Assembly (NCBI GenBank): GCA_033485155.1
Contig: JAWQJJ010000002.1
Location: 124,001-188,000 of the forward strand
From: Methanomassiliicoccus sp.
Lineage (GTDB): Archaea > Thermoplasmatota > Thermoplasmata > Methanomassiliicoccales > Methanomassiliicoccaceae
Direction: 5' to 3'
DNA: 64,000 nt
The position numbers were made by a program, and so were the translations under genes. Positions within the stretch are counted from its first letter, which is position 1; each line of letters begins with the position of its first letter. Shown here one piece after another: positions 407 to 13,078 of the stretch. The notes below the pieces were generated by a model. It made no database searches. It was not told where the DNA came from and saw only the letters and a list, made by a program, of their open reading frames with translations.

Positions 407-2374
407 ATGACCATCGACGTTAGCAACGGCATCATTTATGGGTTGGGGATCGACACCGGCGGCACCTATACCGACGCAGCGATACTGGACCTCCGCACTA
501 AAAAGGTCCTGTTCAAGGCCAAGGCCCGCACAACTCATCACCAGCTGAGCATCGGGCTGGGAGAAGCCATCGACAATGTCTTGGATGCCTTCGGGTCGCG
601 GTCGTTCGACCCCAGCCTGGTGGGGGTGTCCACGACCCTTGCCACCAATTCCATCCTTGAAGGCAAAGGGGGCCAGGTAGGCCTCATCGGTCTGGGCTGG
701 AAGCCACAGGACGGGTGGGACCTGGGCGCCAGTATCCAGAGGTTCGTCGGAGGAGGCCATGACGTCAGAGGCCGGTCCGTCGGTCTCTTGGATGTCGAAG
801 GCATCGAAGCGGCGGCCCGGGATATGAAGGGACGGGTTGATAGTGTGGTCGTGTCCGGCCTGTTCAGCGTTCACAACCCCTATCATGAGATCGAGGCAGG
901 GAAGCTCGTAGGCCAGCGACATGGCATTCCCACCGTCCTAGCTCATCAGCTCACCGGGGAACTGGGGATTCATGAGCGCACAGTGACAGCAGTGCTCAAC
1001 GCTCGCCTGATCCCCGTCCTCCAGGACTTCCTCTCCCGCGTGGAAGGCATCCTTGCCGACCGCCAGATAGCCGCCCCGGTGATGGTATTCAAGGGGGACG
1101 GAACGTTGATGAACATGCGCACGGCGATGGAACGACCGGTGGACACCATCCTGTCCGGCCCGGCGGCCAGCGCCATGGGCGGAGGGGTGCTCGCGGGTAT
1201 CGACGACTGCGTGGTGGTGGATATGGGAGGCACTTCGACCGATATCGCGGTATTGGAGAACGGCGTGCCGAAGGTCACCTCGGAAGGCTCTATGGTCGGT
1301 CAGTGGAGGACCAGGGTAGAGGCTGTAGACATGTGGACAACCGCCTTGGGCGGCGACTCTGAGGTCCGGGCAGGGAGGACCACCAAACTGATCATCGGAC
1401 CTGAACGGGTGGTCCCGCTATGTTTCGCCTCCCAGGAGCATCCTGGGCTGATAGCCAAGATGTCCGCGTTGAGTGAAGCGCGGTTCCTAATTGCACCGCC
1501 CCAGCAACACCGTCTGTCGCCCTCGGAGGATCGCATCGTCGCCTTTCTGCGGAAGAACGGTCCCACGACTCCTGGAGAGCTCAAGAGAGAGATGGAAGAC
1601 ATCATCCTGCTGGACTCGCACCTCCGGGACCTTCGGGCCAGAGGCATAGTACAGGGCATCGGCCTAACCCCGACCGACGTCCTCCATGCCTGCGGTGTTT
1701 TCATCAGGGGCGATCGGGAAGCATCCCGGGTCGGCGTCCGCCTCTACGCCAGCGTGCTAGGGATAGAAGATGACGAGCTTATCCAGGAGGTCATGCGTTC
1801 GGTCACCGCTCGCATCGCCGATGAGGTGATGCACAAGCTATTGTCCGATGAATTGGGGGCACTGCCCGACTCGCCATCGTTCAAGGGTGTCATGGACCTT
1901 ATTACTGGTCGAAGGTGCTGCCCGACGATAAGCCTCAAAGCCCAGGTGAATCGCCCCATCGTCGGGCTGGGCGCTCCGGCTAGGGTCTTCATCTCACCCC
2001 TAGCCGAGATCCTGGGAGCCAGGGTCATCATCCCCGAGGACCACGACGTAGGGAACGCCGTGGGCGCGGTCTGCGGGCAGGTGTCCGAGTTCGTGGACGT
2101 GTTCGTCTACCCCCGGGAGAAGGGTTATGCGGTGTTCTCCTCGCTCAATGCCCCATTCCCCTGTGGGGGTGAGGACGAAGCGGTGAGGAAGGCCAAGGAG
2201 CTTGCGACCAGGTATGCGTTGGAGCGGGCGCGGGCCGCGGGTGGGACGGACCTTGTTGTCGATCTCAGGGTGGAGGAGGAGCGAGGTCTCTCCAACAGCA
2301 CCCTCCAGTCTGACGAGCTGGTCCAGATGAGGGTCCGGGCCCGGGCGGTCGGTCGGCCATCAGTCGAGCTCTAG
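407..2374 (+). CDS. hydantoinase/oxoprolinase family protein (HyuA-type ASKHA fold)
   Basis: This 655-residue protein belongs to the HyuA/oxoprolinase family of ATP-using enzymes with an actin-like fold. The first phosphate loop GIDTGGTYTD is at residues 14-23 and the second, VVDMGGTSTD, is near 270. Between them lies a long alpha/beta region, and near 310 there is a glycine-rich GGDSEVR segment. Residues about 365-430 resemble a small helical insert. The gene faces the UroD-mtrA-mtrH operon tail to tail and the two stop codons share one CTAG (2371-2374). Its placement beside a corrinoid methyltransferase cluster suggests it may serve that cluster, for example in ATP-dependent corrinoid reactivation or substrate activation. 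That role is inference. True hydantoinase activity cannot be read from the sequence. Confidence 0.85.
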   Translation: MTIDVSNGIIYGLGIDTGGTYTDAAILDLRTKKVLFKAKARTTHHQLSIGLGEAIDNVLDAFGSRSFDPSLVGVSTTLATNSILEGKGGQVGLIGLGWKPQDGWDLGASIQRFVGGGHDVRGRSVGLLDVEGIEAAARDMKGRVDSVVVSGLFSVHNPYHEIEAGKLVGQRHGIPTVLAHQLTGELGIHERTVTAVLNARLIPVLQDFLSRVEGILADRQIAAPVMVFKGDGTLMNMRTAMERPVDTILSGPAASAMGGGVLAGIDDCVVVDMGGTSTDIAVLENGVPKVTSEGSMVGQWRTRVEAVDMWTTALGGDSEVRAGRTTKLIIGPERVVPLCFASQEHPGLIAKMSALSEARFLIAPPQQHRLSPSEDRIVAFLRKNGPTTPGELKREMEDIILLDSHLRDLRARGIVQGIGLTPTDVLHACGVFIRGDREASRVGVRLYASVLGIEDDELIQEVMRSVTARIADEVMHKLLSDELGALPDSPSFKGVMDLITGRRCCPTISLKAQVNRPIVGLGAPARVFISPLAEILGARVIIPEDHDVGNAVGAVCGQVSEFVDVFVYPREKGYAVFSSLNAPFPCGGEDEAVRKAKELATRYALERARAAGGTDLVVDLRVEEERGLSNSTLQSDELVQMRVRARAVGRPSVEL

Positions 2375-3261
2375 AGGTCGGTGGCAGCCTGTCTCATCAT
2401 CTCGTCGGCGAAGGACGCGGCGTAGAACACGCGGCGGGCGTGCTCCAGGGGCCCGTAGACCACGAAATCCCCTCCCGCCATAATGGGCATGACCGCCGAG
2501 GCCTCGTCCACGTACTGGTACAGCTTGCGGTCCTCCCTCGCTATGGACGTCAGAGGACGATACGACTCCACCGCGTTATGAAGGGCGCATCCGGCGGGCA
2601 GCCCCCACTTCGCCTTAGCCACCATTATCGCCCTCAGAGCGGAGCCTGCCCCCTGCTCGGCAGCCATCACTGCGGTGTCGACAAGCGGCCTCGTTATCCC
2701 GGCCTGGCGGGCGAGATCGATGAGCCCCGATGGAAGGATACCGCCCCCGTCCTCGAGCAGATAGATCTTACCCTTCAGGTCGGTGTCCCGGGGATTGAAG
2801 GCCATGAGGACCGCGGCGGTGACGCGTGCGTCCCTCACCGCCTCAAGCTCCTCCGAAGTGGTCCCGGCCGATAGAGAATTGTAGATGACTCGTTCGGAGA
2901 TGCCCATCTCCCTCGCCGCCCGGGCGCCGGACAGCCGGACCTCGGCGCTTGGAGAGTCGATGAACAAGGGCATCGATGTCAGGTCGACCGCCTTTCTAAG
3001 GTGGGCCTCCATGGCCTCCGCGGTCTCGGCAAAGAGCATGACTCCACCAGGGGTCGATGTCTCCTCAGCCGCCGCCGCAAGGGATGTGAGCAAGCGCTCG
3101 AACGATCCCTCCTTGCATCGGCCGGTGACGCGATCCTCGATAATGCTATGACGAGGGTAGCCCAATGAGCCGATCATCACCGTGCGATGCTTCCCCGGTT
3201 GTCCTCCGAACCGGACTCCAGAGATCTCGAACTCCTCCTGCTGGCTGTGGAACCGTATCAC
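2371..3261 (-). CDS. mtrH-like: MtrH-like tetrahydropterin methyltransferase
   Basis: This 296-residue protein matches subunit H of tetrahydromethanopterin S-methyltransferase along its length. It opens with FHSQQEEFEISGVRFGGQPG, continues with an MIGSLGY strand, and has an LFIDSP segment typical of the TIM-barrel pterin-binding fold. In the family, MtrH moves a methyl group between a corrinoid protein and tetrahydromethanopterin. The start is a GTG at 3261, directly after the stop of the mtrA-like gene and preceded by a GGGGGTG Shine-Dalgarno sequence inside it, so the two are surely co-translated. No mtrB-G genes are nearby, so this is not the sodium-pumping complex. A dedicated soluble methyltransfer system is more likely. 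The pterin used (H4MPT or H4folate) is unknown. Confidence 0.87.
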   Translation of the reverse strand: MIRFHSQQEEFEISGVRFGGQPGKHRTVMIGSLGYPRHSIIEDRVTGRCKEGSFERLLTSLAAAAEETSTPGGVMLFAETAEAMEAHLRKAVDLTSMPLFIDSPSAEVRLSGARAAREMGISERVIYNSLSAGTTSEELEAVRDARVTAAVLMAFNPRDTDLKGKIYLLEDGGGILPSGLIDLARQAGITRPLVDTAVMAAEQGAGSALRAIMVAKAKWGLPAGCALHNAVESYRPLTSIAREDRKLYQYVDEASAVMPIMAGGDFVVYGPLEHARRVFYAASFADEMMRQAATDL

Positions 3262-3262
3262 C

Positions 3263-4075
3263 TTATTGCACCCCCTTCAGGTATCTCTGCAACCGCCCCG
3301 CGAGCTCTACTGAGGGCACCATCCTTACTACCCCGTCGACCGGATCGAGGATCACCCGGAACTCGGAGGACACGATGGCAATGTCGGTCCAGGTGCTCAG
3401 CCGCTCGCTCGGCATCCTGAGCATCTGCCCCACGAAGTCGTCGGCCAGGCGGTTCAACTGGCGGGCGATGCTCTCTCCCTCGGCCCGCAGCGCACTGCCG
3501 GTGGATGTGAGCGCCGGGGCTGTCAACGGCCCCGGATCTCGGTCCCGGCATTCCTTTATCGCTCTCGCCAGTTCTTCGACGCTCGGCGGGTCGAGCACGT
3601 ACTCGGGATCGTAGGCCACGATCTCCGTCACCTCCTTCACGTGCACCAGATCGACGACCTCCACCTGCTGGCGGAAGCGCTCGACCGCCTCCCGGGACAG
3701 GTTGCAGAGGAAGGGGATGGCCGAACGGGAGCCGATGATTCTCATCTGGTCGTCCACACCGTTTCGGTGCAGGGAAAGGATGGCATTGGCCGGAAAGTGG
3801 CCGAACTCCTCCCGGCCGCAGACGATGAGGAACCGGATGGTATGATTGCTCACGATGTTCGTCACTACCTTCTCCAATCCCATGTTCTCCGTCTTCATCG
3901 TCCCCTTGATGGCATATCCCTCCTCAAGGTCCACCCTTCCCCGCCCGATGATCAGAACCGCCACCGGACTGCTCGGGTCACTCACCACATAATCTCCGGG
4001 GACCAGAGGCCAGGCGCGCCCATCTTCCTCGGGCCGGGCAAGTTCGACTTTTCCCACAATGTCCATGGGGTTCAC
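3263..4075 (-). CDS. mtrA-like: MtrA-like soluble corrinoid protein
   Basis: This 270-residue protein resembles the corrinoid-binding domain of MtrA: WPLVPGDYVVSDPSSPVAV at 22-40, KTENMGLEKVV at 61-71, and EEFGHFPAN at 89-97. His93 aligns with the cobalt-coordinating histidine of MtrA. The canonical C-terminal membrane anchor is absent. Instead there is a soluble tail of about 130 residues ending in an EFRVILDP segment, possibly a DUF4346-type domain. The GTG start at 4075 overlaps the TGA of the upstream methyltransferase gene (GTGA), and an ATG three codons later is an alternative. It probably carries the methyl group between the UroD-type enzyme and the MtrH-like enzyme encoded on either side. 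Confidence 0.85.
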   Translation of the reverse strand: MNPMDIVGKVELARPEEDGRAWPLVPGDYVVSDPSSPVAVLIIGRGRVDLEEGYAIKGTMKTENMGLEKVVTNIVSNHTIRFLIVCGREEFGHFPANAILSLHRNGVDDQMRIIGSRSAIPFLCNLSREAVERFRQQVEVVDLVHVKEVTEIVAYDPEYVLDPPSVEELARAIKECRDRDPGPLTAPALTSTGSALRAEGESIARQLNRLADDFVGQMLRMPSERLSTWTDIAIVSSEFRVILDPVDGVVRMVPSVELAGRLQRYLKGVQ

Positions 4076-5112
4076 TCCCTCACCCGCCGGCCGTAGCGTT
4101 CCACGCTGTCCCTGAGCCGCTTGATATTTTCCACAGGGGTTTTATACCCCATCTCGCAACCCGGTCCGACGATGATCCCCGGGCCGGGACCCCATTGATC
4201 CAGCGTGCCTTTCACCGTTTTCTCCACCTGATCGGGTGTCCCCGACTGAAGCAGCTCAGCGTGGTCGATGCCGGCGATCATGCACGCCTTCCCCCTGACC
4301 GCATCGAAAACCTCCGCGGGGTCCACGTACTTGAGGTGGAGGTGGATGGCCGTCGGACCATACTCCATCTGCGTGGACCAGAACGGACGGGCCGCGCAAT
4401 TGTGGCATATCGTCCTCAGCCCGTTCTCGCGGTATGAGCGTACCGTCTCGTGCATGTACTTCCCGTCGAACTGGGCGTACTGCTCCAGACTTACCATCTC
4501 CCCGCCAGCGGTGCCGTTCTCGATGAAGACCTCCTCCACTCCAATCTCCCTCAGGGCTTCTCCGTACGCCCGGGAGGATTCGGTCAGCACCCCCAGCGCT
4601 TTGGCGGTGACATCGGGGTCGGTGAAGTAGGTCATCATCACGTTCTCCAGACCGAACAGCTCGGAGGCGATGACCGCCGGCGAGTTGATGCAGCCGACCA
4701 CCGCCACCTCTTTGCCTACTTCGTCCATCATGATCGATGCCGCCCGTAGGGGAACCGACCAGAACCTGTCCTTCCGCGGATCGACCGGTGTGAGCTTATC
4801 CACTTCGCTCAACTCCACATACCTGTCCACCCGGGGATAGAAATCCCTCTCAGGCCACTTCCATACCATGCCATGGGCCTGGGCCTCGATCAGGATGTCC
4901 CCCCATCCCGCCATCACATTGTCGAAACCGTACATCCGGTAGGAGGCCAGGGCAAGCTTGGAGAAGATATCTGGGTCATGAAACCCATCGTACCATCGCA
5001 GTCCGGTGTCCTGCAGCAGCCACTTTGCCGCTCCGAGGTGCTGGTAGAATAGCGGCACCCTGTCCGTCTCCTCTCCTTCCAGCGCGGCCTGGAACCGATC
5101 GCGGGGGATCAT
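4072..5112 (-). CDS. UroD/MtaA/CmuA-family methyltransferase
   Basis: This 346-residue protein has the uroporphyrinogen-decarboxylase fold used by methylcobamide methyltransferases such as MtaA, MtbA and CmuA. The zinc-site signature is present as His237-x-Cys239 (in TICHNCAA) with a distant Cys319 in GPGCEM, matching the HxC...C pattern of the methyltransferase branch and not the decarboxylase branch. It is the first gene of a three-gene operon with an MtrA-like corrinoid protein and an MtrH-like enzyme. It may therefore demethylate a small thiol, ether or amine substrate onto the corrinoid, or transfer from the corrinoid to coenzyme M. The substrate cannot be inferred from sequence alone. 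The ATG start is clear, and the cupin gene is transcribed divergently. Confidence 0.87.
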   Translation of the reverse strand: MIPRDRFQAALEGEETDRVPLFYQHLGAAKWLLQDTGLRWYDGFHDPDIFSKLALASYRMYGFDNVMAGWGDILIEAQAHGMVWKWPERDFYPRVDRYVELSEVDKLTPVDPRKDRFWSVPLRAASIMMDEVGKEVAVVGCINSPAVIASELFGLENVMMTYFTDPDVTAKALGVLTESSRAYGEALREIGVEEVFIENGTAGGEMVSLEQYAQFDGKYMHETVRSYRENGLRTICHNCAARPFWSTQMEYGPTAIHLHLKYVDPAEVFDAVRGKACMIAGIDHAELLQSGTPDQVEKTVKGTLDQWGPGPGIIVGPGCEMGYKTPVENIKRLRDSVERYGRRVRE

Positions 5113-6261: not shown

Positions 6262-7713
6262 TCAGTTCAATTCCGCTTTTTCTTTGGTGCGGGCACTCAT
6301 TCTCTCCTTGTAGTTCTCCCGCTGAGAGTATAGCCACAGAGGTATGAAGAGGACTAGGACCCCGAACCCTACCATCGTCGGTACGATGCCATAGGCCAGG
6401 TTGTTGATGTACACGGCGCCGATCAGGAGGAAAGGCATCTGCAGGATGGCCAGGACCAATGCTATCCACTTCCATCCGCGTGGTGCCTTATATGGCCTCT
6501 CCAGATCCTTGAGGGCGGGATCCCGGCTCGCCTTGACATAGGCGAAGAGGGCGATGGCGAACACGAACACATAACCGATTGCGGACATGGCCAGAATAGC
6601 CACCGGGTTCCCCTGGAGGATGAACAGCAAAGCCAGGTTGAACAAGGCGATGACGAGAATCCCGCGCATAGGTTCGCCCTTGCGGTTGGTCTTGGCGAAC
6701 CAGCGCGGGAGGTTGCCTTCCAGGGCCATAGCATGCATGGCCCTGGCCCCGGCGGAGTAGCCGATCTGGATGAGAAGGATGCAAGCAAATACCATCAGCA
6801 AGATGACGATCGACCCGGCGAGGGAACCGAAGCACATGACCGCAACGCCGTACAGAGGGGAGATCGGTTCAGCGAGGACGCCTTCCACTCCCAGGGCTCC
6901 GATGACCGAGGTCTGGATCAGGACGTACATAATAAGGCACACGATGCCCGCGGCAAAGAGGGCTTTTGGTACGTCCACGGAGGGCTTTTGGTACTCTGGG
7001 CCATATACCGCGACCATCTCCCAGCAGCAGGCTGACCACTGGGCGATGACCACCAGCCCCAGGACCATCATCATATGGTCGCCGTCCCAGGTCCAATCAG
7101 CGGGGACCATGGCGGAGGTAAGGTTCTCCAGGTGGAAGTTGCCAGTGGCGAAAGGAGCTAGAGCGATAAGAGCGATGGGCACAATGGTCAGCATGCCTAC
7201 GATCAGCCCGAGCAACGCTCCTGACTTCAGCCCGGTGGAGGCGATGATGGCCAAACCTCCTAGGATGATGAGCCCTAGGATGATATTGAGCTGCAGTTGA
7301 TCCATTGCAGCGAGGTCCGGGAACACCGCCCCCAGGTAGTTGCTGATGATGATTATGAAGACTGCCAGCCCAGGCGCCCAGACCAACCAATAGGCCCATC
7401 CGCAGAATCCGCCGATGAACCGTCCCCGATCGAATCTCTTATTCTCGCCATCCTTCGACTTGAAGATCTCCTGGCAGAAGCCAGGTATACCTGAGGCGTT
7501 AGGGAAGGTGGTAGCTAGCTCAGCGAAGGCCATGTTCTGTATGAATCCCTGGATGACCGACAGTCCCCATAGCAGTACCGAGGCGGCCCACAGGAGCTCG
7601 ACCGTAATGCCGATGCTGGGGATGATGGCCAAAGGGATGCCTATGCCGATCAGGAAACCGTGCTTCCAACTTATGCATCGCTTGAGGCCGCATTGCTCGT
7701 TCGTATCTGTCAT
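6262..7713 (-). CDS. APC-superfamily permease
   Basis: This 483-residue polytopic protein has about twelve predicted membrane spans and the overall layout of the amino acid-polyamine-organocation superfamily. It includes a glycine-rich first span (FLIGIGIPLAIIPSIG) and a short charged loop with SKDGENKRFDRG between spans two and three. The C-terminus is a lysine- and glutamate-rich cytoplasmic tail. The substrate cannot be assigned. The gene is expressed from an upstream region that holds two near-identical 19-bp palindromes around a TATA box, so it is probably tightly regulated. Its location between a methyltransferase cluster and mtaCB makes an amine, amino acid or corrinoid-related substrate possible, but that is inference. 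Confidence 0.88.
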   Translation of the reverse strand: MTDTNEQCGLKRCISWKHGFLIGIGIPLAIIPSIGITVELLWAASVLLWGLSVIQGFIQNMAFAELATTFPNASGIPGFCQEIFKSKDGENKRFDRGRFIGGFCGWAYWLVWAPGLAVFIIIISNYLGAVFPDLAAMDQLQLNIILGLIILGGLAIIASTGLKSGALLGLIVGMLTIVPIALIALAPFATGNFHLENLTSAMVPADWTWDGDHMMMVLGLVVIAQWSACCWEMVAVYGPEYQKPSVDVPKALFAAGIVCLIMYVLIQTSVIGALGVEGVLAEPISPLYGVAVMCFGSLAGSIVILLMVFACILLIQIGYSAGARAMHAMALEGNLPRWFAKTNRKGEPMRGILVIALFNLALLFILQGNPVAILAMSAIGYVFVFAIALFAYVKASRDPALKDLERPYKAPRGWKWIALVLAILQMPFLLIGAVYINNLAYGIVPTMVGFGVLVLFIPLWLYSQRENYKERMSARTKEKAELN

Positions 7714-8840: not shown

Positions 8841-9626
8841 ATGCTAGACTTCGACAATGTGAAAGCCGACATGATCTTGACTCGGTATGACATCAAGATG
8901 GAGTCGCAGGAGAAGCCAGAGGCAATTGCTGCGAGGATGCTTCCCAAGGACCCGCTCCTGAAGAAGGTCGCAGAGGATGTATTGAACCTGAAGGGCAAGC
9001 TCATCGAGGACGATGTTAAGGCTGCTCTGAAGGAGAACTCCCCTGAGGACGTCATCGAGGGTGGCCTGCTGAAGGGCATGGATGTTGTGTCTGAGCTTTA
9101 CGGACGCGGTATCTACTACCTGCCGCACGTCATGGTCGCCTCTGACGCCATGGACAAGGGAATGAAGATCGCTGAGGCTGCCCTCCAGCACGGAAAGAAG
9201 GTTAAGGGCACCATCGTTATGCACGCCGCTGAGGGTGACCCCCACGACATTGGCAAGAACATCGCCGCTGTGCTGCTGAAGTCCAACGGCTTCGGTGTCG
9301 TCGACCTGGGCAGGGATGTCTTGGTCTCCGATGTTGTCGCTGCTGTCGAGAAGAACAAGCCCCAGATGGTCACCGGCACCGCCCTTATGACCACCACCAT
9401 GTCCGCTTTCCCCAAGATCGCGGAGAGGCTGGAAGAGATGGGCATAAACATCCCGTTCGTCTGCGCCGGCGGTGCAGTCAACAGGCAGTATGTGGAGTCT
9501 TACCCGATGGGTGTCTACGCCGAGAAGGCCGCCCAGGGACCCGCCCTTGCTACCAAGACCGTTGAGGGCTGGGACTGGAGGAAGTTGAGAGACAAGTGGG
9601 ACGACCTGATGGCGGGGAAGGCTTAA
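8841..9626 (+). CDS. mtaC: methanol-specific corrinoid protein
   Basis: This 261-residue corrinoid protein accepts the methyl group of methanol from MtaB and hands it to an MtaA-type enzyme for coenzyme M methylation. It has an N-terminal helical cap domain (about 25-120) and a Rossmann-like B12 domain with the DPHDIG motif at 133-138, where His135 is the lower cobalt ligand. GTALMTTTMS and the CAGGAV loop complete the cofactor site. The ATG at 8841 follows GAGGAG. An upstream ATG at 8833 opens only a four-codon frame. Codon use is strongly biased toward a narrow set, as expected for a highly expressed catabolic gene. It forms an operon with mtaB. Confidence 0.95.
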   Translation: MLDFDNVKADMILTRYDIKMESQEKPEAIAARMLPKDPLLKKVAEDVLNLKGKLIEDDVKAALKENSPEDVIEGGLLKGMDVVSELYGRGIYYLPHVMVASDAMDKGMKIAEAALQHGKKVKGTIVMHAAEGDPHDIGKNIAAVLLKSNGFGVVDLGRDVLVSDVVAAVEKNKPQMVTGTALMTTTMSAFPKIAERLEEMGINIPFVCAGGAVNRQYVESYPMGVYAEKAAQGPALATKTVEGWDWRKLRDKWDDLMAGKA

Positions 9627-9640
9627 TCGAGGTGAAAAAA

Positions 9641-11044
9641 ATGTCGCTGAAGAACTTTACTAAGATGGAATATGGCTCCGCAGATGAGATCGTTTTCGGA
9701 GATGCGAAGTACCCCCTGTCCTACGGCCTTGGCCTCAAGGTCGGCGCTGGGTTCGTTTCCCCCGAGATCAACTTTGCCCCCAGGCCTGGGTCCGAGAAGA
9801 ACCCGGAGTCCCTGACCAAGGAGTACGTCGAGTACATCACCAAGGACATCATGAACCGCGCGGTCACCCTCGGGTTCCCCTCCCTCCAGCTGGAGAACGA
9901 GTGGATCCACCAGATGGGTAACAACCCCGAGAAGTTCGCGAAGCCCGTCGTGGCTGGCCAGAAGGCCGTAATGCAGAAGTTCCACGACGAGTACGGCGTT
10001 GCTTGCGCTATCAGGCACACCGTGGCTGACCCCAGGCTCGCCGAAATGGGTCTGAGGCCCGGCATGGACAAGACCCACATGTACCCTGAGAAGACCCTGG
10101 ACTCCCTCGAGGTCGCTGCGGCGAACGGCGCCGATGTGCTGTCCATCGAGAGCATGGGCGGCAAGGAAGTCGCTGACTACGCTATCGTCAGGCAGGATAT
10201 CCGCGGCTGGCTGTTCGGTATCGGCTACCTCGGCTCCATCGACATGGAGTGGCTGTGGCCCCAGATCGTTGACGTTGCCAAGAAGCACAAGATCGTGCCT
10301 GGCGGCGACACCAACTGCGCCGGTGCCAACACCTCGATGTTCATGGCCGGCGGCTACCTGGACAAGGATATCCCCCGTGTTTTCGCTGCCGTCACCCGTG
10401 CCATCGCCTCCGCCAGGACGCTCGTGGCCATCGAGTGCGGTGCCACCGGACCGGACAAGGACTGCGGCTACGAGGGCCCCGTCCTGAAGGCCATCTCTGG
10501 CCGCCCGTCGGCCCAGGAAGGCAAGGGCGCTCAGGATGCGCACGCTGACCTGATGGGTAACCTCATCGCTCAGGTGTGCGACCTGTGGTCCAACGAGTCC
10601 GTCGAGTACCACCCTGAGTTCGGTGGCTCGTCCGTCCAGTGCTGGCTCGGTGTCATCGGGTACGAGGCTGCCCTGATGAACGCTGCCAAGCAGATGAAGC
10701 AGGACAAGGTCCTCAGGGACGTCTACGTCGCTTCCGACAGGTTCCGGAGCCCCGAAGGGTTCTGCATGGCCTACGACAACGCCTACAAGATCGGCCAGGC
10801 CATCGTGAGCGAGGGCAACAACTACTACCTCAGGGCCAAGGCTGCCGGTCTCAAGGCCTGCGAGCTCATCCAGGAGTCCAACCAGAAGGGCAAGCTGAAG
10901 CTGTCCAAGCAGGAGAAGGACACCCTGAACAAGATGCTCACCGACCTGAACTCCCTCCCGTCCGAGGAAGGCAAGTTCGTCGACTGGGCGCTGAAGGAGT
11001 ACAAGAACGTACCTGCCTTCAACCCCAAGAACTACGAGCTCTAA
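9641..11044 (+). CDS. mtaB: methanol:corrinoid methyltransferase
   Basis: MtaB splits methanol at a zinc site and methylates the cob(I)amide of MtaC, the first step of methanol-dependent methanogenesis. The 467-residue protein has the expected length. The zinc ligands can be placed at Glu170 (in DVLSIES), Cys226 (GGDTNCAG) and Cys275 (PDKDCG). Their spacings of 56 and 49 residues equal those remembered for the Methanosarcina barkeri enzyme (Glu164, Cys220, Cys269). The start is the ATG at 9641 after a GAGGTG Shine-Dalgarno sequence, 14 bases past the mtaC stop. An in-frame upstream extension overlaps mtaC and was rejected. Codon bias is as strong as in mtaC. No mtaA follows. Confidence 0.96.
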   Translation: MSLKNFTKMEYGSADEIVFGDAKYPLSYGLGLKVGAGFVSPEINFAPRPGSEKNPESLTKEYVEYITKDIMNRAVTLGFPSLQLENEWIHQMGNNPEKFAKPVVAGQKAVMQKFHDEYGVACAIRHTVADPRLAEMGLRPGMDKTHMYPEKTLDSLEVAAANGADVLSIESMGGKEVADYAIVRQDIRGWLFGIGYLGSIDMEWLWPQIVDVAKKHKIVPGGDTNCAGANTSMFMAGGYLDKDIPRVFAAVTRAIASARTLVAIECGATGPDKDCGYEGPVLKAISGRPSAQEGKGAQDAHADLMGNLIAQVCDLWSNESVEYHPEFGGSSVQCWLGVIGYEAALMNAAKQMKQDKVLRDVYVASDRFRSPEGFCMAYDNAYKIGQAIVSEGNNYYLRAKAAGLKACELIQESNQKGKLKLSKQEKDTLNKMLTDLNSLPSEEGKFVDWALKEYKNVPAFNPKNYEL

Positions 11045-11563: not shown

Positions 11564-13078
11564 TCAACCGGCCGCCTTCTCCGCCTTGGAGTTCTCCGCG
11601 CTCCGCGTTTCCAGCAGGGAAACTCCCATGGTGACGGCGAAGCCCAGGGGTATCGACACGATGCCAGGGTTGTTCAGCGAGAAGATGGCGTCATGGCCCA
11701 TCATCGTCGGGGAGATAACGATCAGCAGGATCGACGATATCAGCCCGGCTAGAATGCCGTAGACGATGCCTTTCTCACTGGTCCGCTTCCAGAACAGCGT
11801 GCACAGCAGCGCCGGCAGGTTGGCGGAGGCCGCGATGGCGAACGCGAGGCCGACGAGGAAAGCCACGTTCTGTCCCTTCGACAGGATGCCCAGCACTATG
11901 GCGATTAGACCGACCCCGATGGCGGTGCCCTTCGATATCAGGAGAGCGCGCTTCTCGTCGGACTTCCTGCCCAGCACTTCGGCGTAGATGTCGTGGGCGA
12001 TGGCCCCGGCTGAGGCCATGATCAGGCCAGACACCGTCCCCAGGATGGTGGCGAAGGCGATCGAGGAGATGATGGCATAGAACACATCTCCGCCGATGTA
12101 GTCCGCTAGCAGGGGGGCGGTGAGGTTGGCGTCGGTGGGGTTGATCACTCCGGGCACTCCTTGGTTGAAGAAGTAGATCGCTCCCAGTCCCAGGAACAGG
12201 ATGAGCATGTAGAATATGCCCATGACCACGATGGCGACGACCGTGGACTTCCTAGCATCGGCTGGCTTGGGCACGGTGAAGTACCGGATCAGTATGTGCG
12301 GTAGCGCTGCCGTGCCCAGGATGAGGGCCAGGGCCAGGGAGACGAAGTCCAGGGGGTTGGTGTACTTCATGCCCGGGGACATGAAGGTGTCCCCTGACAC
12401 CACCTTCCCGCTGGGCAGGTGCAGTGTGCTGCCGATGATGTTCCCGATGAACTCGAACGGCCCCATGCCCGCGGCGATCAGAACGCCGACCGTCAGGGCG
12501 ATGACCGCTATGAGGAGCATGAACCCCTTGATGAACTGGACCCAGGTGGTGGAGACCATGCCGGCGGTGGCCACGATGACCACGACCAGCAGGCCGATGA
12601 CCACGACTCCGACCTCATAGTCCAGACCGAGCAGCGGACCGACGATGGAGCCCGCACCGACCATCTGTGGAATCAGGTAGAAGACGCTGACCACCAGGGT
12701 GGAGATGGCAGCTGCCAGCCTGATCTTGCGGCTCTTGAACTTGGAGGTCAGGGCGTCGGCGAAGGTGTACTTGCCTATGGCCCGCAGCGGTTCGGCCACC
12801 AGGAACAGGGCGACGATCCAACCGGCCAGGAAGCCGATGGCGTAGATGAAGCCGTCATACCCGGCGAACGCCACCAGGCCGGTGATGCCTAGGAAGGACG
12901 CTGCGCTGAGGTAGTCTCCGGCGATGGCGAACCCGTTGACGAACCATCTGACGCCTCCTCCCGCGACGTAGTAGTGGCCGGCGGTACGGACCCTGCGGCT
13001 GGCGTAGATCGAGATGGCCAGCGTCAGGACGGTGATGGCGATGAAGATCGCCAGACTGAGAGGTTGTATCTCGGCCAT
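11564..13078 (-). CDS. actP: sodium:solute symporter, ActP-type acetate permease
   Basis: This 504-residue protein has about thirteen spans and the solute:sodium symporter core: SRRVRTAGHYYVAGGGVRWFVNGFAIAGDYLSAASFLG near the N-terminus and GTVSGLIMASAGAIAHD later, both close to ActP/YjcG. ActP imports acetate or other short monocarboxylates with a cation. Acetate is a likely carbon source for a methylotrophic methanogen that lacks a full methyl branch, which would give this importer a clear role. The gene starts one base after the stop of the UspA-DUF485 fusion gene, and the two form an operon, as bacterial yjcH-actP do. Confidence 0.9.
   Translation of the reverse strand: MAEIQPLSLAIFIAITVLTLAISIYASRRVRTAGHYYVAGGGVRWFVNGFAIAGDYLSAASFLGITGLVAFAGYDGFIYAIGFLAGWIVALFLVAEPLRAIGKYTFADALTSKFKSRKIRLAAAISTLVVSVFYLIPQMVGAGSIVGPLLGLDYEVGVVVIGLLVVVIVATAGMVSTTWVQFIKGFMLLIAVIALTVGVLIAAGMGPFEFIGNIIGSTLHLPSGKVVSGDTFMSPGMKYTNPLDFVSLALALILGTAALPHILIRYFTVPKPADARKSTVVAIVVMGIFYMLILFLGLGAIYFFNQGVPGVINPTDANLTAPLLADYIGGDVFYAIISSIAFATILGTVSGLIMASAGAIAHDIYAEVLGRKSDEKRALLISKGTAIGVGLIAIVLGILSKGQNVAFLVGLAFAIAASANLPALLCTLFWKRTSEKGIVYGILAGLISSILLIVISPTMMGHDAIFSLNNPGIVSIPLGFAVTMGVSLLETRSAENSKAEKAAG

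Follow-up and report, generated by a model that had tools for sequence, protein, structure and literature searches.

A soluble MtrA-MtrH pair beside a UroD-family methyltransferase in Methanomassiliicoccales: a candidate methyl exchanger between a folate and a thiol pool

We analyzed a 64,000-nucleotide stretch (referred to here as the window; contig JAWQJJ010000002.1, positions 124,001 to 188,000 of the forward strand) of a Methanomassiliicoccus sp. genome (assembly GCA_033485155.1; 2.8 Mb in 15 contigs, with the window on contig 2) that encodes Mcr and whose relatives include named metagenome-assembled genomes (MAGs) of the order Methanomassiliicoccales, e.g., 'Methanomassiliicoccus sp. MXMAG1'. 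Three genes on the reverse strand form a unit that begins with a UroD-family methyltransferase (4072–5112; 346 amino acids (aa); Pfam URO-D, 3.8e-50) and continues with a soluble MtrA-like corrinoid protein (3263–4075; 270 aa; Pfam MtrA, 1.1e-47) and an MtrH-like methylcorrinoid:pterin methyltransferase (2371–3261; 296 aa; Pfam MtrH, 2.8e-74). A HyuA-type ASKHA ATPase gene on the forward strand (407–2374; 655 aa; Pfam Hydantoinase_A, 4.6e-34, and Hydant_A_N, 8.5e-27) converges on this unit, and the stop codons of HyuA and MtrH have a CTAG in common (2371–2374; assigned to neither strand). The original prediction, made from the sequence alone, had described these four open reading frames, their families and the common CTAG, all of which we found as described. 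All four genes are under purifying selection (ratio of nonsynonymous to synonymous substitutions, dN/dS, 0.07–0.19 for the window against its nearest relatives; the ratio is approximate, dS being at least 1 in these between-species comparisons), indicating that the open reading frames are not due to chance. Translational coupling had also been proposed: the stop codon of UroD and the start codon of MtrA overlap by four bases (GTGA, 4072–4075, reverse strand) and a single base separates MtrA from MtrH, but the tight UroD-MtrA overlap is confined to the window genome, and in the nearest relative ~3 kb separate the two genes, with TrkA/TrkH-like genes (ion transport by inspection) in between. None of MtrB–G is encoded within the cluster, as had been claimed; our genome-wide search covered MtrH only, which is present in one copy, and the absence of MtrB–G from the genome as a whole is taken from the literature.

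His93 of MtrA (codon 3797–3799, reverse strand) is the predicted lower cobalt ligand. This residue is invariant in 23 relatives and aligns (phmmer) with the region around His84 in the MtrA structure 5laa, and Glu63, likewise invariant, is the counterpart of Glu54; His84 and Glu54 make up the published cobalt linkage of MtrA (PMC4915002). The core of the MtrA model resembles the cobalamin-bound MtrA of 5laa (Foldseek template modeling (TM) score of 0.86, normalized by target). By hydropathy the protein has no transmembrane helix or membrane anchor, its maximum over 19 residues being 1.28 vs. 1.9–2.8 in the C-terminal anchors of complex-bound MtrA, so that the soluble MtrA with a His93 ligand that had been put forward stands as a prediction. 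Residues 162–270 (3266–3592, reverse strand) form a C-terminal extension which is conserved order-wide, is missing from MtrA elsewhere in the phylum, where the protein is ~190 aa long, and is modeled as a long helix followed by a three-stranded segment and then a short helix (predicted local distance difference test (pLDDT) about 57–94 by block). A Pfam search at E<5 returned only MtrA itself and Foldseek gave no PDB match to that part; the order-wide occurrence of this predicted segment, matching no known domain, is new here. The B12-binding Pfam domain typical of MtaC/MtoC was not found in the cluster, the corrinoid protein being of the MtrA type, and the window MtrA misses the NCBIfam equivalog cut-off for mtrA (161.8 vs. 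249.15). Soluble MtrA-MtrH pairs with neither extension nor anchor were also seen in Methanotrichaceae and Methanosarcinales MAGs (L098:9956-11537 and L137:8863-10412), the former with a CooS-like CO dehydrogenase (named by inspection) ~2.5 kb upstream of the pair.

Phylogenetic trees, which the original prediction had suggested as a check on whether the pair separates from complex-bound Mtr, showed this for one protein and not for the other: MtrH falls into a clade distinct from complex-bound MtrH (split support 1.0), but a strong separation of MtrA was not obtained (split support 0.35). The window MtrH also misses the NCBIfam equivalog cut-off for mtrH (245.1 vs. 271.4). It retains the pterin residues D102, N128, D195, and N229 (D103, N129, D196, and N230 in Methanosarcina mazei numbering), i.e., the Asp/Asn/Asp/Asn quartet which, according to the M. 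mazei Mtr structure paper (PMC12774963), is common to MtrH and the folate enzyme MtgA. In the same paper Arg239 of M. mazei MtrH belongs to a basic patch (R239/K242/K243) proposed to hold the charged tail of tetrahydromethanopterin (H4MPT). The window MtrH carries Thr238 at that position (codon 2548–2550, reverse strand), and the position is basic in 0/32 MtrH proteins of the clade vs. 16/16 complex-bound ones; at the level of single residues, nothing points more clearly than this loss to a clade that may use a pterin other than H4MPT. Position 75 (codon 3037–3039, reverse strand) is Met in the window MtrH, as it is in 35 of 36 clade members, Gln in 14 of 16 complex-bound MtrH proteins, and Asp in MtgA. 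At two other loci (L051:6645-7445 and L052:2744-3547), MtrH-like proteins of 266–267 aa are encoded convergently with MtrA and have lost the pterin-binding Asn and neighboring residues.

The gene content of the order bears on which pterin this would be. Mch, one of the core enzymes of the H4MPT methyl branch, was found in 0/130 genomes, three control genomes being positive. MetF is present in 30 of the 37 genomes that encode the soluble type of MtrA (Fisher p 4e-12, from tests that treat related genomes as independent and ignore shared ancestry); among genomes at least 95% complete it is present in 16/17 with MtrA vs. 8/37 without, and for CdhC the counts are 15/17 vs. 14/37. Within ~30 kb, the window genome encodes FolD, MetF, an AcsE-like methyltransferase (above the NCBIfam cut-off, 285 vs. 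259), a bacterial-type RACo, CdhD/E-like proteins (corrinoid iron-sulfur protein, CFeSP) and CdhC (acetyl-CoA synthase, ACS). The lack of Mch and the presence of MetF in MtrA-encoding genomes argue that the pterin is probably tetrahydrofolate (H4folate), and the presence of FolD, MetF, the AcsE-like enzyme, CFeSP and ACS means that a pterin-linked pathway is expected, on H4folate. Judged by its genes, the methyl branch of the window genome is folate-based, and we find the case for H4folate as the likely pterin of MtrH a strong one; H4MPT is disfavored by the absence of Mch and the loss of the tail patch. A pterin link had been thought unexpected in a lineage believed to lack the methyl branch: this is correct for the H4MPT branch, but a folate methyl branch is present and such a link is therefore to be expected. 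A second Pterin_bind protein encoded elsewhere in the window genome is presumably dihydropteroate synthase.

The UroD-family enzyme carries the HxC...C motif that the original prediction had read as a zinc site, and the zinc site remains putative: His237 (codon 4402–4404) is invariant in 12 orthologues, Cys239 (codon 4396–4398) is Asp in mcr-linked paralogues, and Cys319 (codon 4156–4158) lines up with the PGC motif in MtaA 4ay7 (all three codons on the reverse strand). A His-Cys-Cys set has been reported as the mark of UroD-family S-methyltransferases, one or both Cys residues being replaced by carboxylates or non-ligands in O-methyltransferases (PMC10418091). The AlphaFold2 model (pLDDT 87) has MtaA 4ay7 as its best PDB match (TM 0.87). 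The motif and MtaA as the nearest fold suggest, with moderate confidence, that a thiol is the substrate class. In fold and motif the enzyme is like the soluble coenzyme M (CoM) methyltransferases MtaA, MtbA and MtsA, but it shares only ~25% identity with MtaA, forms a clade of its own, and scores below all cut-offs for CoM methyltransferases (MtaA/MtbA/CmuA; 144.4 vs. 244 and 120.9 vs. 235.4); the cut-offs and the separate clade rule it out as a plain MtaA. Elsewhere in the same genome, a UroD paralogue near mcr (C2:380605-381624; L063) has HND for HNC and adjoins an MtaA-type gene and RamA, and a second methyltransferase cluster (C2:38000-57000; L182) comprises an HNC-type UroD, a corrinoid protein, a CobW-like GTPase and three HyuA genes.

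The co-location of these families, which had been proposed as a test of the unit, is conserved in the order to differing degrees. The locus scan used a closer MtrA subset, an alignment of all MtrA being too diverse. MtrA of the soluble type occurs in 37/130 genomes, in genera that also encode Mcr, and nearly all intact loci have MtrA and MtrH side by side; a UroD-clade gene lies near MtrA at 15/32 loci vs. 0.23 expected (~65-fold over expectation), and HyuA likewise at 15/32 loci vs. 0.57 expected (~26-fold). In two families MtrAH lies beside mcrBDGA, in a region that also contains YcaO, TfuA and a DUF169-like gene; adjoining the pair there are a RamA-type activase, an MtaA-type CoM methyltransferase, a gene for a metallo-beta-lactamase-fold protein, HyuA and, in many cases, UroD. 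In this neighborhood RamA (709 bits, cut-off 500) and the MtaA-type enzyme (above the CoM-methyltransferase cut-off) were identified by hidden Markov model (HMM), and several of the other genes were named by sequence inspection. The placement of MtrAH beside mcrBDGA, RamA and an MtaA-type enzyme argues for a link to CoM and Mcr. The recurrence of the predicted UroD family and RamA activase beside MtrAH, often next to mcr, is new here. The mcr locus of the window genome has kept MtaA, the UroD paralogue, RamA and YcaO and does not have MtrAH, and the pair looks as if it had moved from the mcr locus to its present place.

HyuA has seven Cys residues and matched ASKHA models including Hydantoinase_A, but no Fe-S motif was found in it and the RACo_C_ter model was not matched (HMM). 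The family is multicopy, with members in 117/130 genomes and four copies in the window genome, and HyuA genes also adjoin mtaC in other clusters. A dedicated corrinoid activase of the RACo or RamA kind, in line with the corrinoid reduction that the original prediction had listed among the roles of ASKHA ATPases, was rejected on these grounds; from its distribution, HyuA is best described as a recurrent neighbor and not as a dedicated part. In G005, a relative without UroD-MtrA-MtrH at the same locus, a ~46-nt deletion and a frameshift have disrupted the HyuA orthologue (L180, 6121-8048), one suggestive case of a possibly shared fate with UroD-MtrAH and not proof of it. This case and the counts above bear on a rival explanation, namely that MtrAH is a relic, or serves other corrinoid proteins, and that UroD and HyuA are unrelated neighbors. 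The loose UroD-MtrA linkage across the order, the many copies of HyuA, and the MtrH-like proteins of L051 and L052 that have lost pterin residues speak for this explanation; the purifying selection on all four genes, the near-constant adjacency of MtrA and MtrH, the enrichment of UroD and HyuA near MtrA, and the broken HyuA of G005 speak against it, and we regard it as highly improbable.

We propose instead that UroD-MtrA-MtrH may be a soluble, membrane-free and Na+-independent exchanger that passes methyl groups, via the MtrA corrinoid, between methyl-H4folate and a thiol, CoM being the likeliest, a reading that we consider evenly balanced between right and wrong. MtrH would move the methyl group between N5-methyl-H4folate and the Co(I)/CH3-Co(III) forms of the MtrA corrinoid (a His93-on cobalamin), and the His-Cys-Cys UroD would move it between that corrinoid and the thiol, a step in which, in other families of the order, the MtaA-type enzyme could assist or take over. 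Confidence in CoM as the thiol is moderate to weak. The unit would connect the folate Wood-Ljungdahl pathway (MetF, the AcsE-like enzyme, and CFeSP/ACS) to the methanogenic CoM pool (Mcr, and methanol through MtaBC). On balance, methyl groups from methyl-CoM or from methylotrophy would flow to methyl-H4folate and into acetyl-CoA for biosynthetic use, the chemistry being reversible; this direction agrees with the joint occurrence of the unit with MetF and ACS and is offered with weak confidence. Oxidized corrinoid would be reactivated by the RamA-type activase from the mcr locus, and HyuA would be an accessory ATPase in a non-redox role. Compared to the Mtr complex (MtrA–H), which likewise has a corrinoid MtrA with a His ligand and the pterin methyltransferase MtrH, the cluster of the unit is without an anchor or Na+-pumping subunits, its MtrH has lost the tail patch, its MtrA has an extra C-terminal domain, and a UroD enzyme stands in place of MtrCDE. 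Tentatively, and with rather less than even confidence, methanogens without Mtr may have rebuilt a soluble, Na+-independent methyl-H4folate:CoM methyltransferase from three parts, namely an extended MtrA, a UroD-type thiol methyltransferase and an MtrH retooled for folate, which would let archaeal methanogenesis exchange methyl groups with the bacterial-type folate Wood-Ljungdahl pathway.

Several observations weigh against the exchanger. Its UroD enzyme is distant from MtaA and fails every CoM-methyltransferase cut-off, some members of the UroD clade near mcr carry HND instead of HNC, and the clade is missing in 11 of the 37 genomes with MtrA and present in 9 genomes without it. The linkage to MetF and CdhC, besides the treatment of related genomes as independent in its tests, is one-sided in that both also occur in genomes without MtrA. 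Met75 is seen in neither the MtrH of the complex nor MtgA, and the pterin could therefore be something else. Finally, a CoM methyltransferase (L057) and the AcsE-like enzyme are already encoded in the window genome, so neither end of the bridge is strictly missing. A different role would be the entry of a substrate: UroD would demethylate an external compound (a methylated thiol, thioether or selenide by its Zn ligands) and charge MtrA, from which MtrH would pass the methyl group to H4folate as in the Mto (aryl methyl ethers) and Mtg (glycine betaine) systems, with CoM uninvolved. The gene order of first methyltransferase, corrinoid protein and second methyltransferase is that of the Mto and Cdm systems, and MtoABCD of Methermicoccus shengliensis (PMC8630106) and MtgABC are like the unit in their three-component logic and in an MtrH-family second methyltransferase that uses a tetrahydropterin, but their carrier is an MtaC-type B12 protein whereas that of the unit is of the MtrA type. 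The UroD clade stands apart from the CoM methyltransferases and does without MtrA in those 9 genomes, an amino-acid/TMAO-permease-like transporter gene (6262–7713) and the methanol mtaCB genes lie nearby, and permafrost-mire Methanomassiliicoccales have been reported to express methyl-sulfide genes. In other families, however, the MtrAH pair lies by mcr, RamA and MtaA, often without this UroD, and the unit is not accompanied by a conserved, dedicated transporter; we consider substrate entry unlikely.

The exchanger has a precedent in the literature. Speth and Orphan (2018; PMC6147122) described soluble mtrAH with an unusual C-terminal extension of MtrA in a Lake Pavin clade and proposed methyl transfer between tetrahydrofolate and CoM, most environmental clades of Methanomassiliicoccales turned out to have mtrA and mtrH in a genome survey of 2024, and a 2022 survey (PMC9635834) termed the role of MtrAH in other metabolism types unclear. 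A 2020 paper reported mtrH alone for MXMAG1; we find mtrA directly upstream of mtrH in that MAG (L069:10001-11657). The reading of the locus as a methyl-transfer unit of corrinoid and pterin proteins with conserved co-location is therefore upheld, but it is not new as such, the MtrA-MtrH pair of this order having been published in 2018 and 2024. The Lake Pavin account agrees with ours in the gene pair, its solubility, the MtrA extension, the divergent MtrH and the proposed H4folate; it names no CoM-accepting or substrate-specific enzyme, whereas here a His-Cys-Cys UroD overlaps MtrA, and the RamA/MtaA/mcr neighborhood and the loss of the H4MPT-tail patch are added. Our literature search, which left subscription journals mostly outside, found no account that links MtrAH to UroD, to RamA/MtaA/mcr or to loss of the MtrH tail patch. 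What is new is the likely partners of MtrAH, the predicted folate-type MtrH site and the conserved setting beside mcr, the core pair being known already. Speth and Orphan saw the pair in an energy or oxidation role, either passing methyl groups from methyl-H4folate to CoM (aceticlastic methanogenesis) or from CoM to H4folate for oxidation to formate (methanol disproportionation). This published hypothesis for the same gene pair finds ACS and MetF in the same genomes and an acetate-symporter-like SSF gene in the window (11564–13078) on its side, but without sodium-coupled subunits in the cluster the CoM step would dissipate its energy, and its authors themselves termed it highly uncertain; we consider it quite improbable.

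Should the unit act as the proposed methyl-H4folate:thiol exchanger, the energy-converting Mtr step would be replaceable by a simple cytosolic exchange. The analysis bears on how Methanomassiliicoccales connect CoM chemistry with a folate-based acetyl-CoA pathway and on the role of MtrAH outside the Mtr complex, and it names likely partner enzymes and residue-level evidence for a changed MtrH pterin.

Outside the unit and ~4 kb from it, a methanol mtaCB operon (8841–11044) encodes, on the forward strand, the corrinoid protein MtaC (8841–9626) and the methanol:corrinoid methyltransferase MtaB (9596–11044; NF040651, 737 bits, cut-off 720). The permease gene between them and the unit resembles models of amino-acid and trimethylamine N-oxide (TMAO) permeases, the TMAO match being below its cut-off. 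Farther along the window (18692–59551), the scanned part is largely given to surface-glycan synthesis, with glycosyltransferases, a UDP-sugar dehydrogenase, a nucleotidyltransferase and a DegT aminotransferase.

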